Below the pieces are notes generated by a model. That model worked only from the letters and a program-made list of their open reading frames with translations. It was not told the DNA's origin and searched no databases. Below, one piece after another: positions 13,323 through 17,902 of a stretch of DNA of 45,529 nt. The first letter of the stretch is position 1; every line of letters begins with the position of its first letter. The position numbers and the translations under genes are program-made. Where the stretch lies: the NCBI GenBank assembly GCA_022072255.1, contig JAJVHZ010000033.1, positions 1 through 45,529 on the forward strand, read 5' to 3'. The stretch is from Gammaproteobacteria bacterium. GTDB taxonomy: Bacteria > Pseudomonadota > Gammaproteobacteria > JAJPIJ01.

Positions 13323-13820
13323 TTATTTCGCCTGGGCGCGGATCCGCGGTGCGGGGGCGGCCTCCCGCAGTACGTCCTCGCCGAGCATCGCGGCGATGAC
13401 GCGATCCTCGAGTTCGATGCGGGTGGCGAGTTTCTCGCCGAGCTTCGAAAGATCGTCGGCGAGCGTGTCCATGAAGTGGAAGTTCCACTCGCCACCGTAC
13501 TTGTCGTTGAAATCCACGGCGGCGTCGGTGGAGGCGGCGATGCGCGGGTACGCCTTGCTGGCGGTGGCGACGACTGCCTGACGGCGTTCCGTACCCTCGA
13601 TGATGCGGTGATACAGTCCGAAGTGACCCGCCGCGATGTAGTCGACCAGTACCGAGTTGAACTCCCCGAGCAGGTCCTTCACCGGCTTGTCGGCGGTGAA
13701 TGGCTTCAGGCCCAGGACCTCGCACATCAACACCAGCACGCGCTGCCTTTCCGCAAGCAGTTTGTCGATGAGCTGGCGGGAACCTTTGCGGCGGCGCAGG
13801 GCTTCGTTTTTCTCTTTCAT
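13323..13820 (-). CDS. rsd: Rsd/AlgQ anti-sigma-70 regulator
   Basis: A 165-residue helical protein (E. coli Rsd is 158) that binds sigma-70 region 4 and favours alternative sigma factors in stationary phase; the Pseudomonas homologue is AlgQ. It begins with the family's basic start (RRRKGSRQLIDKLLAERQRVLVLMCEV) and contains FTADKPVKDLLGEFNSVLVDYIAAGHFGLY and VDFNDKYGG. The ATG at 13820 has AAGGA 11 nt upstream. It is transcribed toward bioA with a 118-bp gap, so probably a separate unit. Confidence 0.93.
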   Translation of the reverse strand: MKEKNEALRRRKGSRQLIDKLLAERQRVLVLMCEVLGLKPFTADKPVKDLLGEFNSVLVDYIAAGHFGLYHRIIEGTERRQAVVATASKAYPRIAASTDAAVDFNDKYGGEWNFHFMDTLADDLSKLGEKLATRIELEDRVIAAMLGEDVLREAAPAPRIRAQAK

Positions 13821-14030
13821 GATGTCTTGTCCTTGTAGGTCGACCCGGGGCAGGTCCGGTCAGTCTCCCGCTGCTGGCCACATTCGGCCACGATCTCGTC
13901 GAGACGCTGTGCAATTCTAGTGCCTGCCACCAACGGGGTCATCCGCACGAACGCGAACTGGTGCACGGGCCACAACAGGCGGGAAAAACCGGTGCGGAAT
14001 CTCGCGCGGGCGTGTACCGGCCGGGGCCGC

Positions 14031-14723
14031 TCACAGTCCCGGGGCACGCCAGCCCCGCCACCATTCCGACATCGGCACGATATAGGGCGGCTCTCCGTTC
14101 GCCAGGAACCAGGAGTCCACCGCGTATTCCGTGCCGGACTGCGTGTCCCGTATGACGGAGGTCGCATGCGGCCACTGTGTCAGCAGCCCGGTGAACGGTC
14201 CGCGGGTGGCCTGTCCCGCGACGCTGTGAAACCGGAGCAGACCGTCGTTCTGCAGCATGGTAAGGTAAACCGTTGTGTTGACTGACTCATCGATACAATC
14301 GAGTTGCCCCGGGCGACCCATGCCGTCATCCTTGCCCAGGTCGACATCGGTTCCGGTCATCAATCCGACCATGTTCTCCAGCAGGGCGACGGCCGCGGCG
14401 ATGCTCGTCCGCTCCGTGCTGGCGTCGGGGACCGGTTCCCTCAGGATCGCGCGGACTTGCTCCCAATCGGATTCAGAAAGGCTTATTCTGGCACGCTTCG
14501 CGCAAGTGTTACCGTGACAGACGGAGAAATCGCCCGGTCGCGGGCGCTCGACGAAGGCAGGAAGCTGGATCTGGAAACCCGTTCCGCCCGTCAGGTTATT
14601 GGTTGCCGAGACGGGTGGCGGCGCTTCTCCCGCCGTCCGCACGCCGCTGCAGGCATGCAACGTGGCAAGCAACGCCAAGGCGGTCACACCCACGGGGCCA
14701 CGCCCGTAGCTACGATGTTTCAT
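14031..14723 (-). CDS. Uncharacterised lipoprotein with possible Cys-His-Asp triad
   Basis: A 230-residue exported protein. The N-terminus is a lipoprotein-type signal with TLHAC, lipid-modified Cys25 (His at -2 is unusual). The mature part has C69 and C74 in CHGNTC. The C-terminal half reads LDCIDESVNTT (C143), WPHATSVIRD (H186) and YAVDSWF (D203), an order and spacing reminiscent of transglutaminase or papain-like folds. I recall similar uncharacterised proteins in other proteobacteria. The triad is my inference. There is no Shine-Dalgarno sequence; a perfect TATAAT ends 8 nt before the ATG. It diverges from the Ser/Thr kinase gene, with 98 bp between the starts. Confidence 0.75.
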   Translation of the reverse strand: MKHRSYGRGPVGVTALALLATLHACSGVRTAGEAPPPVSATNNLTGGTGFQIQLPAFVERPRPGDFSVCHGNTCAKRARISLSESDWEQVRAILREPVPDASTERTSIAAAVALLENMVGLMTGTDVDLGKDDGMGRPGQLDCIDESVNTTVYLTMLQNDGLLRFHSVAGQATRGPFTGLLTQWPHATSVIRDTQSGTEYAVDSWFLANGEPPYIVPMSEWWRGWRAPGL

Positions 14724-14731
14724 TCAGCGCA

Positions 14732-14737
14732 ATTATA
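14732..14737 (-). promoter_or_regulatory. -10 box of the lipoprotein gene (leaderless candidate)
   Basis: Perfect TATAAT on the minus strand with 8 nt between it and the ATG at 14723. Transcription starting about 7 nt downstream would begin at or next to the A of the ATG. The -35 region is weak. Confidence 0.5.
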
Positions 14738-14808
14738 TCGACCGTCCGTGCAGGAAGGCAGCCCTGCTGGACGGCCCGGCCGCCTCGGGAGCGCGCGCAG
14801 GGCGCCGC

Positions 14809-14814
14809 TATAAT
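14809..14814 (+). promoter_or_regulatory. -10 box of the Ser/Thr kinase gene (leaderless candidate)
   Basis: Perfect TATAAT with 7 nt (CAAGAAC) between it and the ATG at 14822, and no Shine-Dalgarno sequence. The expected start of transcription coincides with the start codon. The -35 region is GC-rich and does not resemble TTGACA. Confidence 0.5.
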
Positions 14815-14821
14815 CAAGAAC

Positions 14822-16276
14822 ATGGAAATCCCAGGATACGAAATCATTCGTGCGATCGGCGTCGGCGGGATGGCTACTGCCTATCTCGCCACCCAGGCGT
14901 CGCTCGGCAGACAGGTCGTCCTGAAGGTGCTGGACACCACGAATGACGTCACCTCCAAGAACGTCGAGCGCTTCATGAACGAGGCGCGCATCGTTGCCTC
15001 CCTGCGCCACCCCAACATCATCACCATCTACGACGTCGGTCGCCACAGCGACCTCATCTACATCTCGATGGAATACATCGAGGGTGGCGACCTGAAGGCT
15101 CGCATGGCCGATGGCGTCGCGCCGCAGGAGGCCCTCGATATCGTCGCGCGGATCGCCAGCGCGCTCGACTGCGCGCACAAGAGCGGCGTCATACACCGCG
15201 ACGTGAAACCGGCCAACATCCTCTTCCGCAAGGACGGCACGCCGCTGCTGACGGATTTCGGCATCGCCAAGAAGCTCACCATCGATCACGACCTGACGTC
15301 GACGGGGATCTTTCTCGGCAGTCCCAATTACATGGCGCCGGAGCAGGCCGAGGACGTGCCCATCGACGGCCGTGCCGACATCTATTCCCTCGGCATCATC
15401 CTTTACGAGATGCTGACGGGGAACAAACCGTACCAGGCCGATTCGGTGGTGGACATCATCCTGAAGCATCGCCAGGGGGCGCTGCCGCGGCTTCCGAATG
15501 ACCTGCGCATGTTCGAGCCGCTGTTGTACCTGATGATCGCGAAGAAACCGAAGGATCGGTTTCGCGATGCCGAAAGCCTGTTGCATTACATCCGCGACAT
15601 GGAACAGCGCGCTGCGTTGCACCCCGCGGGGCCGGGCAGGGCCGCGGCGATCGGCGAGACCACCGGCAGCACAACGCGCATGCCGACGTGGACCAGCGCC
15701 CGGCCGGTCGCGCCCAAGAAGACGCGCATACACTCCGCGCTGCTGCTGCTCTTGGTGGTCGCGGCCACCGGCTTCGGCATGCTGCAGTACTACGCGCGGC
15801 GTCTGGCCGATGCGCCGATTCGTCCAGTGGAGGGTCTGTTGCCGCGGGTGTACGTCGATGCGACGCTCGATGCGCAGCCAGGCACGCGCGGCGCGGCGCC
15901 GTTGACGCCGGCCAGTGACGACGTGCGCAAGGCGCTCATCTGGCTCGCGCAGAAGTCTCTGGATGACTATCGGCTGGTCGCGCCGCCGAACGACAACGCT
16001 TACTTCTACTACTCCCGGCTGCGGGACATCGATCCGGAGAGCCGGCTCGCGGAGGACGGTTTCAAGCGCATCGCCGAGCGCTTTGCCGTCCTCGCCGAGA
16101 AGGAGATGGCCCGCAGCGACGAGCGGGCGGCAAGGAACTACGTGACGATCGGTCTGCAGCTCGATCCGAACAACGAGGCGCTACGGGAACTGCGCGAGCT
16201 CACCAGGCCGCGCATGGAGGGTCTGTTCGATACCATCATTCGCGCACTGGCGCGTAACGAAAAGGGCGCCTCCTAG
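14822..16276 (+). CDS. Transmembrane Ser/Thr protein kinase (Hanks type)
   Basis: A 484-residue protein. The cytoplasmic kinase domain (~5-265) is complete: Gly loop IGVGGMATAY (11-21), Lys35 in VVLKVL, catalytic HRDVKPAN with Asp127, DFG with Asp145, and APE at 172-174. A Pro/Ala-rich linker and one membrane span (~305-323) follow. The ~160-residue periplasmic tail is helical and TPR-like (VAPPNDNAYFYY, then RNYVTIGLQLDPNNEAL). It probably senses an envelope signal and phosphorylates cytoplasmic targets on Ser/Thr. The start at 14822 gives the usual kinase N-terminus; the open frame extends upstream over the promoter. It diverges from the lipoprotein gene; no phosphatase gene is adjacent. 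Confidence 0.93.
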   Translation: MEIPGYEIIRAIGVGGMATAYLATQASLGRQVVLKVLDTTNDVTSKNVERFMNEARIVASLRHPNIITIYDVGRHSDLIYISMEYIEGGDLKARMADGVAPQEALDIVARIASALDCAHKSGVIHRDVKPANILFRKDGTPLLTDFGIAKKLTIDHDLTSTGIFLGSPNYMAPEQAEDVPIDGRADIYSLGIILYEMLTGNKPYQADSVVDIILKHRQGALPRLPNDLRMFEPLLYLMIAKKPKDRFRDAESLLHYIRDMEQRAALHPAGPGRAAAIGETTGSTTRMPTWTSARPVAPKKTRIHSALLLLLVVAATGFGMLQYYARRLADAPIRPVEGLLPRVYVDATLDAQPGTRGAAPLTPASDDVRKALIWLAQKSLDDYRLVAPPNDNAYFYYSRLRDIDPESRLAEDGFKRIAERFAVLAEKEMARSDERAARNYVTIGLQLDPNNEALRELRELTRPRMEGLFDTIIRALARNEKGAS

Positions 16277-17026: not shown

Positions 17027-17902
17027 TTATTCCGCCCGCCGTCTTAAGAGTGCCATGCCGATCATGGCCGAGCCCAGCATCAGCACCGGCGCCGGCAACG
17101 GGACGGGAGCCGTCGCGATACTGACGTTGTCCAGGCCGACGGCCGACTGGGTGCCTTCACCACCCTCCAGCAGCTCGAATTCGAGCCACCAGGTCACGCC
17201 GGTCTGTTCCGCGGTGGGAGACCAGACCGGCAGGTCGCCGGCGAGAAACCGCCGTGACTGGAATCCCGAGTCGCTGCCCAGCGAGGCGAGCTGCAGGGGG
17301 GACGCTGTCCCGGCGGCATTGGTCAGCTTCACGTTGACGACGTCCTGCGCCGTGCCGCTGGTATCGATGCCGTTGAAGGCCATGTCGAAGGCGAACCGGA
17401 CCGTGGCGGTCCCGCCCGGGACGAGAAACGGCAGGCGCACGAAGGACTGTCCGGTTCCGGGTGAGACGGTCCCGGTGCCGAAGACAGGACCATCGTTGTC
17501 GCCGAGGACGAGAAAATTGTTCGGCAGGGGGGCGTCCGGTGCGCCGAAATGGCCATTGAAAGTCGCGTCGTCCGCGACCGCCTCGCTGCCGTTGATCGGA
17601 TTGGCCGCGTTGCGCACGTTGACGCGCGCGGCGGTGGTCGACCCGGAGCTGGCGCGCACGCCGTCGTCACCGCCGGGAAGCCCGGCGACAACGTCGAGCG
17701 GACAACTCGGCTGGCAGACATCGACGGTATCGCTCGCGCCCGGGACGCCGACCGAGTCGAAGTCATAGGTAATCGGTGCGGCGCGGGCGTCGTTGCTCGT
17801 GACCGATGCTGCCACGATGCAAATGGCGGCCAGCGCCAGGCGGCCACCGTGGCCGCGGCGCGAGTGCCGATTGCTGGAAAACAAAGCGTAGGAAAGTGAC
17901 AT
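17027..17902 (-). CDS. VPLPA/PEP-CTERM sorting-signal envelope protein
   Basis: A 291-residue exported protein. The N-terminus has a long signal peptide ending near ARAAP (residue ~42). The body is beta-rich and Gly/Asp/Thr-rich, a lectin-like sequence of the kind common in exosortase substrates. The C-terminus reads VPLPAPVLMLGSAMIGMAL followed by RRRAE: the sorting motif, a membrane span and a basic tail, as recognised by exosortase enzymes. After processing it would be released to or anchored in the outer envelope or exopolysaccharide. The ATG at 17902 has a very strong AAAGGAGG. A sigma-54-like element lies ~70 bp upstream. No exosortase gene is in the window. Confidence 0.88.
   Translation of the reverse strand: MSLSYALFSSNRHSRRGHGGRLALAAICIVAASVTSNDARAAPITYDFDSVGVPGASDTVDVCQPSCPLDVVAGLPGGDDGVRASSGSTTAARVNVRNAANPINGSEAVADDATFNGHFGAPDAPLPNNFLVLGDNDGPVFGTGTVSPGTGQSFVRLPFLVPGGTATVRFAFDMAFNGIDTSGTAQDVVNVKLTNAAGTASPLQLASLGSDSGFQSRRFLAGDLPVWSPTAEQTGVTWWLEFELLEGGEGTQSAVGLDNVSIATAPVPLPAPVLMLGSAMIGMALLRRRAE

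Follow-up and report, generated by a model that had tools for sequence, protein, structure and literature searches.

Divergent TATAAT-to-ATG arrangements at a kinase gene and a lipoprotein gene of a gammaproteobacterium suggest two independent leaderless genes

A genome of a Gammaproteobacteria bacterium (JAJPIJ01; GCA_022072255.1) encodes, on contig JAJVHZ010000033.1, two divergent genes that each have a perfect TATAAT almost adjacent to the start codon. The window analysed here is a 45,529 nt stretch of this contig. The locus raises two questions: whether both genes are expressed from leaderless mRNAs and, if so, whether they form a pair under shared control or are two genes that are leaderless independently of each other. 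The features of the region are as follows.

13323..13820, minus strand: rsd/algQ, regulator of sigma-70 (Pfam Rsd_AlgQ, E 2e-36)
13914..13942, minus strand: possible separate rsd promoter, ATGACC-17-TAGAAT, a consensus match only, downstream of the lipoprotein gene
14031..14723, minus strand: lipoprotein-like gene, 230 aa, with a signal peptide ending LHAC and no Pfam or NCBIfam family
14724..14821, no strand: divergent intergenic region, 98 bp, compared by alignment with the sibling locus L031
14732..14737, minus strand: TATAAT, presumed −10 box of the lipoprotein gene, from the sequence and its identity in the sibling (L031/L172)
14809..14814, plus strand: TATAAT, presumed sigma-70 −10 box of the kinase, from the sequence and family conservation
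14821..14822, plus strand: predicted kinase transcription start, at the A of the ATG or 1 nt before, from the −10 spacing
14822..16276, plus strand: Ser/Thr protein kinase, 484 aa (Pfam Pkinase, E 7e-52)

On the plus strand, the kinase box (14809-14814) is followed by seven nucleotides (CAAGAAC) and the ATG at 14822. On the minus strand, eight nucleotides (TGCGCTGA) separate the lipoprotein box (14737-14732) from the ATG at 14723. The usual distance from a −10 box to the transcription start is 7-9 nt. By this distance, the kinase RNA would begin at 14821/14822 with a leader of 0-1 nt, and the lipoprotein RNA at 14725-14723 with a leader of 0-2 nt. No Shine-Dalgarno (SD) match was found at either start. 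The anti-SD duplex energy is +0.5 for the kinase and −2.2 for the lipoprotein gene, compared with a mean over 325 genes sampled from the genome of −4.3 when the start closest to the coding boundary is used and −5.9 when the best candidate in the vicinity is used. The sequence-only reading, which had reported boxes 7 and 8 nt before the two ATGs and no SD sequence, was correct on these points.

The box-start arrangement at both genes is not due to chance, because TATAAT is rare in this genome. Genome statistics were drawn from a 445-kb sample and from pattern searches; the sample (445,529 bp, 67% G+C) contains 18 copies, counting both strands. The whole window holds three, two of which are this pair, and the pair likewise provides two of the three sampled genes with exact TATAAT 6-8 nt before ATG. 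Divergent pairs with both boxes are expected 1.7e-6 times in random sequence and ~0.01 times if about 15 such genes are randomly scattered. Genome-wide, TATAAT-N4-10-ATG gave 37 matches versus 18 for the reversed control pattern, and roughly 15 of the N6-8 matches open long reading frames. SD sequences peak 5-10 nt before starts in the 445-kb sample, so the organism is mainly SD-led.

Alignment of the 98-bp region with that of the sibling L031 revealed 11 substitutions. None is in either box, and the 22 nt directly 5′ of the kinase ATG are unchanged. In the gap sequence, neither TATAAT has a −35 hexamer at the 16-18 nt of a classical sigma-70 promoter, no other promoter match was found, and no operator or activator site was identified for either promoter.

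We collected kinase orthologues from genome contigs and from whole genomes, those of relatives as well as others of the class. Removal of duplicates left 35 members, including that of the window. A box was defined as a hexamer with at least 5 of 6 matches to TATAAT, located 4-8 nt before the start codon. Such a box occurs in 25 of the 35 members, from many gammaproteobacterial families, and is perfect in 20; variants include TATACT and GATAAT. The spacer is 7 nt in 12 of the boxed members, 6 nt in nine, 8 nt in three and 4 nt in one, and any other 5-nt offset class includes at most 4/35 members. We regard the 4-nt case (L191), an AATAAT from an A+T-rich genome, as doubtful and scored it as leadered in the tree. 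One further member, L123, was counted as near-leaderless, its perfect box being 10 nt from the start. The L033 gene begins six bases upstream of the aligned start codon, yet its spacer also measures 7 nt. Given that the proteins share ~41-63% identity over their aligned parts and that sequences further upstream show no recognisable relationship, except among close siblings, the box is apparently under selection at its position.

Among the 22 non-redundant leaderless members, hexamer positions 2, 3, 4 and 6 do not vary, and the information content at upstream positions is low. Their alignment contains neither a conserved −35 element nor a TG extended −10, so the strength of the kinase promoter is uncertain, and it may need an activator. 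In the leadered members L183, L184 and L197 a perfect TATAAT lies 44-47 nt upstream, which would be expected were TATAAT the real promoter in both states. The mean anti-SD energy is −0.8 for leaderless and −3.2 for leadered members of the family. As controls, we checked genes in the same loci, and none has the box arrangement (rsd 0/27, rsmE 0/17). In the kinase tree, leaderless members fall on both sides of the midpoint-root split, and the state changes five times, versus 9.3 with shuffled labels. An old leaderless state followed by several losses is the simplest reading of this tree, which is rooted only at its midpoint. We take the kinase to be very probably leaderless, and to have been so for a long time. 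The proposal that both genes are leaderless thus has sequence support, and for the kinase the comparative support is strong as well.

The lipoprotein gene has a different history. The copy in the sibling genome (G001, L031/L172) is 89% identical and has an identical box. Besides that of the window, this is the only genome in which the gene is intact at the locus, and conservation across two such closely related copies says little. The expectation of the sequence-only reading that the boxes would be conserved in close relatives therefore held class-wide for the kinase, and for the lipoprotein gene in that single genome. Distant homologues (30-48% identity, other families) have no box at the start and are encoded far from the kinase or on contigs other than that with the best kinase match. 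In the sister genus (G002, L032:2751-2858), the gap between rsd and the kinase contains the intact kinase box and a decayed lipoprotein fragment corresponding to residues 42-77. An intact gene separates rsd from the kinase in this genus alone. Taken with the fragment and the location of the distant homologues elsewhere, this makes the lipoprotein gene a local resident that was present in the ancestor of the family and lost in one branch. It is probably leaderless, in a lineage-specific way. Cys (LDC), His (HxT) and Asp (VDSW) residues are invariant in its family and call to mind the triad of transglutaminase-like cysteine enzymes. Comparison of the family with PDB and Pfam returned weak, unconvincing matches only, and a structure predicted from one sequence had a mean pLDDT of 34 and was not used for a fold search.

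The gene that more commonly faces the kinase is rsd/algQ (Rsd_AlgQ match of 125.7 bits; cut-off, 35). Leaving aside the window and its sibling, it is divergent from the kinase at 25 of 33 loci, with 109-443 nt between the two starts in relatives. In the window and in G001, rsd is one gene further away, with the lipoprotein gene between. We considered the lipoprotein gene as a standing partner of the kinase and rejected this, given that rsd is the usual divergent neighbor and the lipoprotein gene is confined to the genus. The 25 orthologous loci with the kinase-rsd/algQ pairing, often with rsmE (and bioA) nearby, are mostly from uncultured gammaproteobacterial lineages. In E. coli, Rsd/AlgQ is reported to bind sigma-70 (PMC3089606). 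The conserved pairing is a first functional lead for this uncharacterised kinase.

We favour, with a probability of about 0.82, the reading that these are two independent leaderless genes, the kinase in an old state maintained by selection and the lipoprotein gene probably leaderless too. A sigma-70-type promoter with its −10 box jammed near the kinase ATG would yield RNA from the A of the ATG or one base before it, and this mRNA, having no SD sequence, would be translated by leaderless initiation on its 5′-terminal AUG. In the kinase family this state would be old and kept by selection, with several independent reversions to leadered transcripts. The lipoprotein gene would have its own close-set −10 box and make RNA from within two bases of its ATG. 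An additional upstream promoter may also supply leadered kinase mRNA. The pair is read as two independent genes because the promoters are back to back without overlap (71 bp between the two boxes) and nothing points to a common operator.

Shared control through the 98-bp region, as the sequence-only reading suggested, would make the pair one functional and regulatory unit with a common operator. In its favour, each of the two genomes with the pair has both boxes, two such genes would be placed together by chance with an expectation of only ~0.01 under random labels, and there are short inverted repeats between the boxes, for example with 6-bp arms CCGTCC/GGACGG. However, these arms lose one match in the sibling, and in the search for inverted repeats that could form a common operator within the gap nothing stood out after the sibling comparison. 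The pair is also limited to one genus, and elsewhere the kinase retains its box in the absence of the lipoprotein gene, next to rsd or, at L198, L039 and L043, where rsd was not found alongside the kinase, next to other genes. Decay has reduced the lipoprotein gene to a fragment in the sister genus but left the kinase box, and rsd itself has no box. Because the kinase box persists without the lipoprotein gene, shared control is not supported, and we consider it unlikely.

The start-proximal boxes could instead be secondary, with transcripts that begin further upstream and are leadered but SD-less (e.g., S1-dependent). The lack of a −35 element would fit this, as would the atypical SD-less genes known in many bacteria (PMC3160421), but a perfect box locked in position in 20 of 35 members with unrelated upstream DNA would be hard to explain, and the gap has no other promoter match; we give this explanation little credence. 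It is very improbable that the arrangement reflects chance or mis-called starts, with the true start codons elsewhere. The kinase frame is indeed open upstream to 14603, but MEIPGY opens the conserved protein in nearly all members and the upstream DNA is not conserved, and an in-frame TGA lies immediately before the lipoprotein ATG, which opens a normal lipoprotein signal peptide.

The kinase has a Pkinase domain (residues 6-248), a likely transmembrane helix read from the sequence (~303-325), and a C-terminal domain with a weak TPR resemblance (Fis1_TPR_C, E 0.015, below the cut-off) and no family above the cut-off. The alignment of orthologues shows conservation of GGMA, K35, HRDVKP, DFG and the N-terminal MEIPGY. 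With a Pkinase domain containing the Lys, HRD and DFG motifs, it is a Hanks-type Ser/Thr kinase. It resembles the membrane-anchored PknB-like kinases of this type in the Pkinase domain, full catalytic motifs, hydrophobic segment and presence of a C-terminal domain. Unlike the PASTA-domain kinases (PknB/Stk1), it scores 283 bits versus a family cut-off of 450, and its C-terminal domain has no family match above the cut-off. The genome has 26 kinase-domain matches, five of them on one 24.5-kb contig (G000:C51:2361-21881). A contig labelled as from a Klebsiella pneumoniae MAG (L035, CAMCBY010000415.1) bears this kinase locus in a form closely related to L038, and is probably mis-binned.

Six other boxed genes were followed through the same genome set, allowing any nearby candidate start, which makes some of the non-perfect matches loose. 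From sequence recognition, we take them to be lolC, sco1, ppx, rarA, nudix and lysR. For lolC, encoding a lipoprotein-release permease (L004, G000:C3:10936-12192, minus strand; relatives L250-L274), a box 4-8 nt before the ATG was found in 19 of 25 genomes and is perfect in 16. This is as deep as the conservation of the kinase box, and makes lolC a second deeply conserved candidate leaderless gene. The SCO1/SenC-like gene sco1 (L007, G000:C6:63924-64553, plus strand; L289-L316) has a box at 8 of 13 placeable starts (6 perfect) and may be conserved to the same depth. The counts are 7/19 for ppx (4 perfect), 5/25 for rarA (2 perfect), 2/11 for nudix and 2/6 for lysR. The idea that all leaderless genes of the genome are deeply conserved was rejected, as the perfect box is found only in the genus for rarA, nudix and lysR and mainly in the family for ppx. 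Deep conservation of the box thus appears to be a property of particular genes, namely the kinase, lolC and perhaps sco1. The Nudix protein (231 aa, leaderless in the genus) has relatives (L280-L286) whose genes carry a TTAGTGT...ACACTAA-like palindrome immediately before the start, which may serve as an operator for the protein itself, as in NrtR regulators.

The usual view of leaderless genes in proteobacteria is that they are scattered and readily gained or lost in evolution. In bacterial genomes, TA-like signals ~10 bp before the start have been taken to indicate leaderless genes, and 15 of 239 gammaproteobacterial genomes have 3.0-5.7% TA-led genes (Zheng et al. 2011, PMC3160421). The window kinase fits this class, which has a −10 box ~10-12 bp before the start and no SD sequence. 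That study reported genome proportions and a signal turnover that rises with 16S distance, whereas here one kinase gene is constant across many families. Leaderless mRNAs of Epsilonproteobacteria, recognised by the same type of criterion (gnTAnaAT-N5-9-ATG), are similarly gained and lost between orthologues, but are poorly conserved, with only 1 of 23 genes predicted to be leaderless in every species that has it (PMC3847290); in contrast, the box is kept in 25 of 35 kinases and 19 of 25 lolC genes. Two reports give 33 mapped leaderless mRNAs in Salmonella (leaders 0-6 nt) and 18 in E. coli, small sets that, like ours, include membrane proteins and regulators, although those starts were mapped by RNA-seq and ours are predicted from spacing (PMC3293720, PMC3415461). 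A search of open-licence full texts yielded no account of leaderless lolC or of this kinase. Leaderless genes are thus a known kind, also in Gammaproteobacteria, and the depth at which the kinase and lolC appear to be conserved is less usual. The mechanism is ordinary and the conservation pattern is the notable part. The same box-start spacing in the kinase (and lolC) over many families suggests selection for leaderlessness as such in certain genes, and makes the purpose of leaderless initiation in otherwise SD-using bacteria a testable question.

The products of the kinase, lolC and sco1 genes all look like inner-membrane proteins. It is conceivable, though we regard it as rather doubtful, that this set (sco1 with less assurance) has been leaderless since early Gammaproteobacteria under selection and forms a translational group, with the kinase and Rsd as one growth-arrest signalling module. 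If so, the output of the group would rise when leaderless initiation is favored. The sequence-only reading also suggested that leaderless mRNAs may escape normal control under stress. On this point, a review describes a (p)ppGpp-dependent increase of leaderless translation under oxidative stress, and notes that the MazF model was not reproduced by other laboratories (PMC9031893). Close to the kinase gene, the protein encoded at 17027-17902 on the minus strand has a borderline match to the VPLPA-CTERM sorting signal (25.2 bits; cut-off, 25.35).
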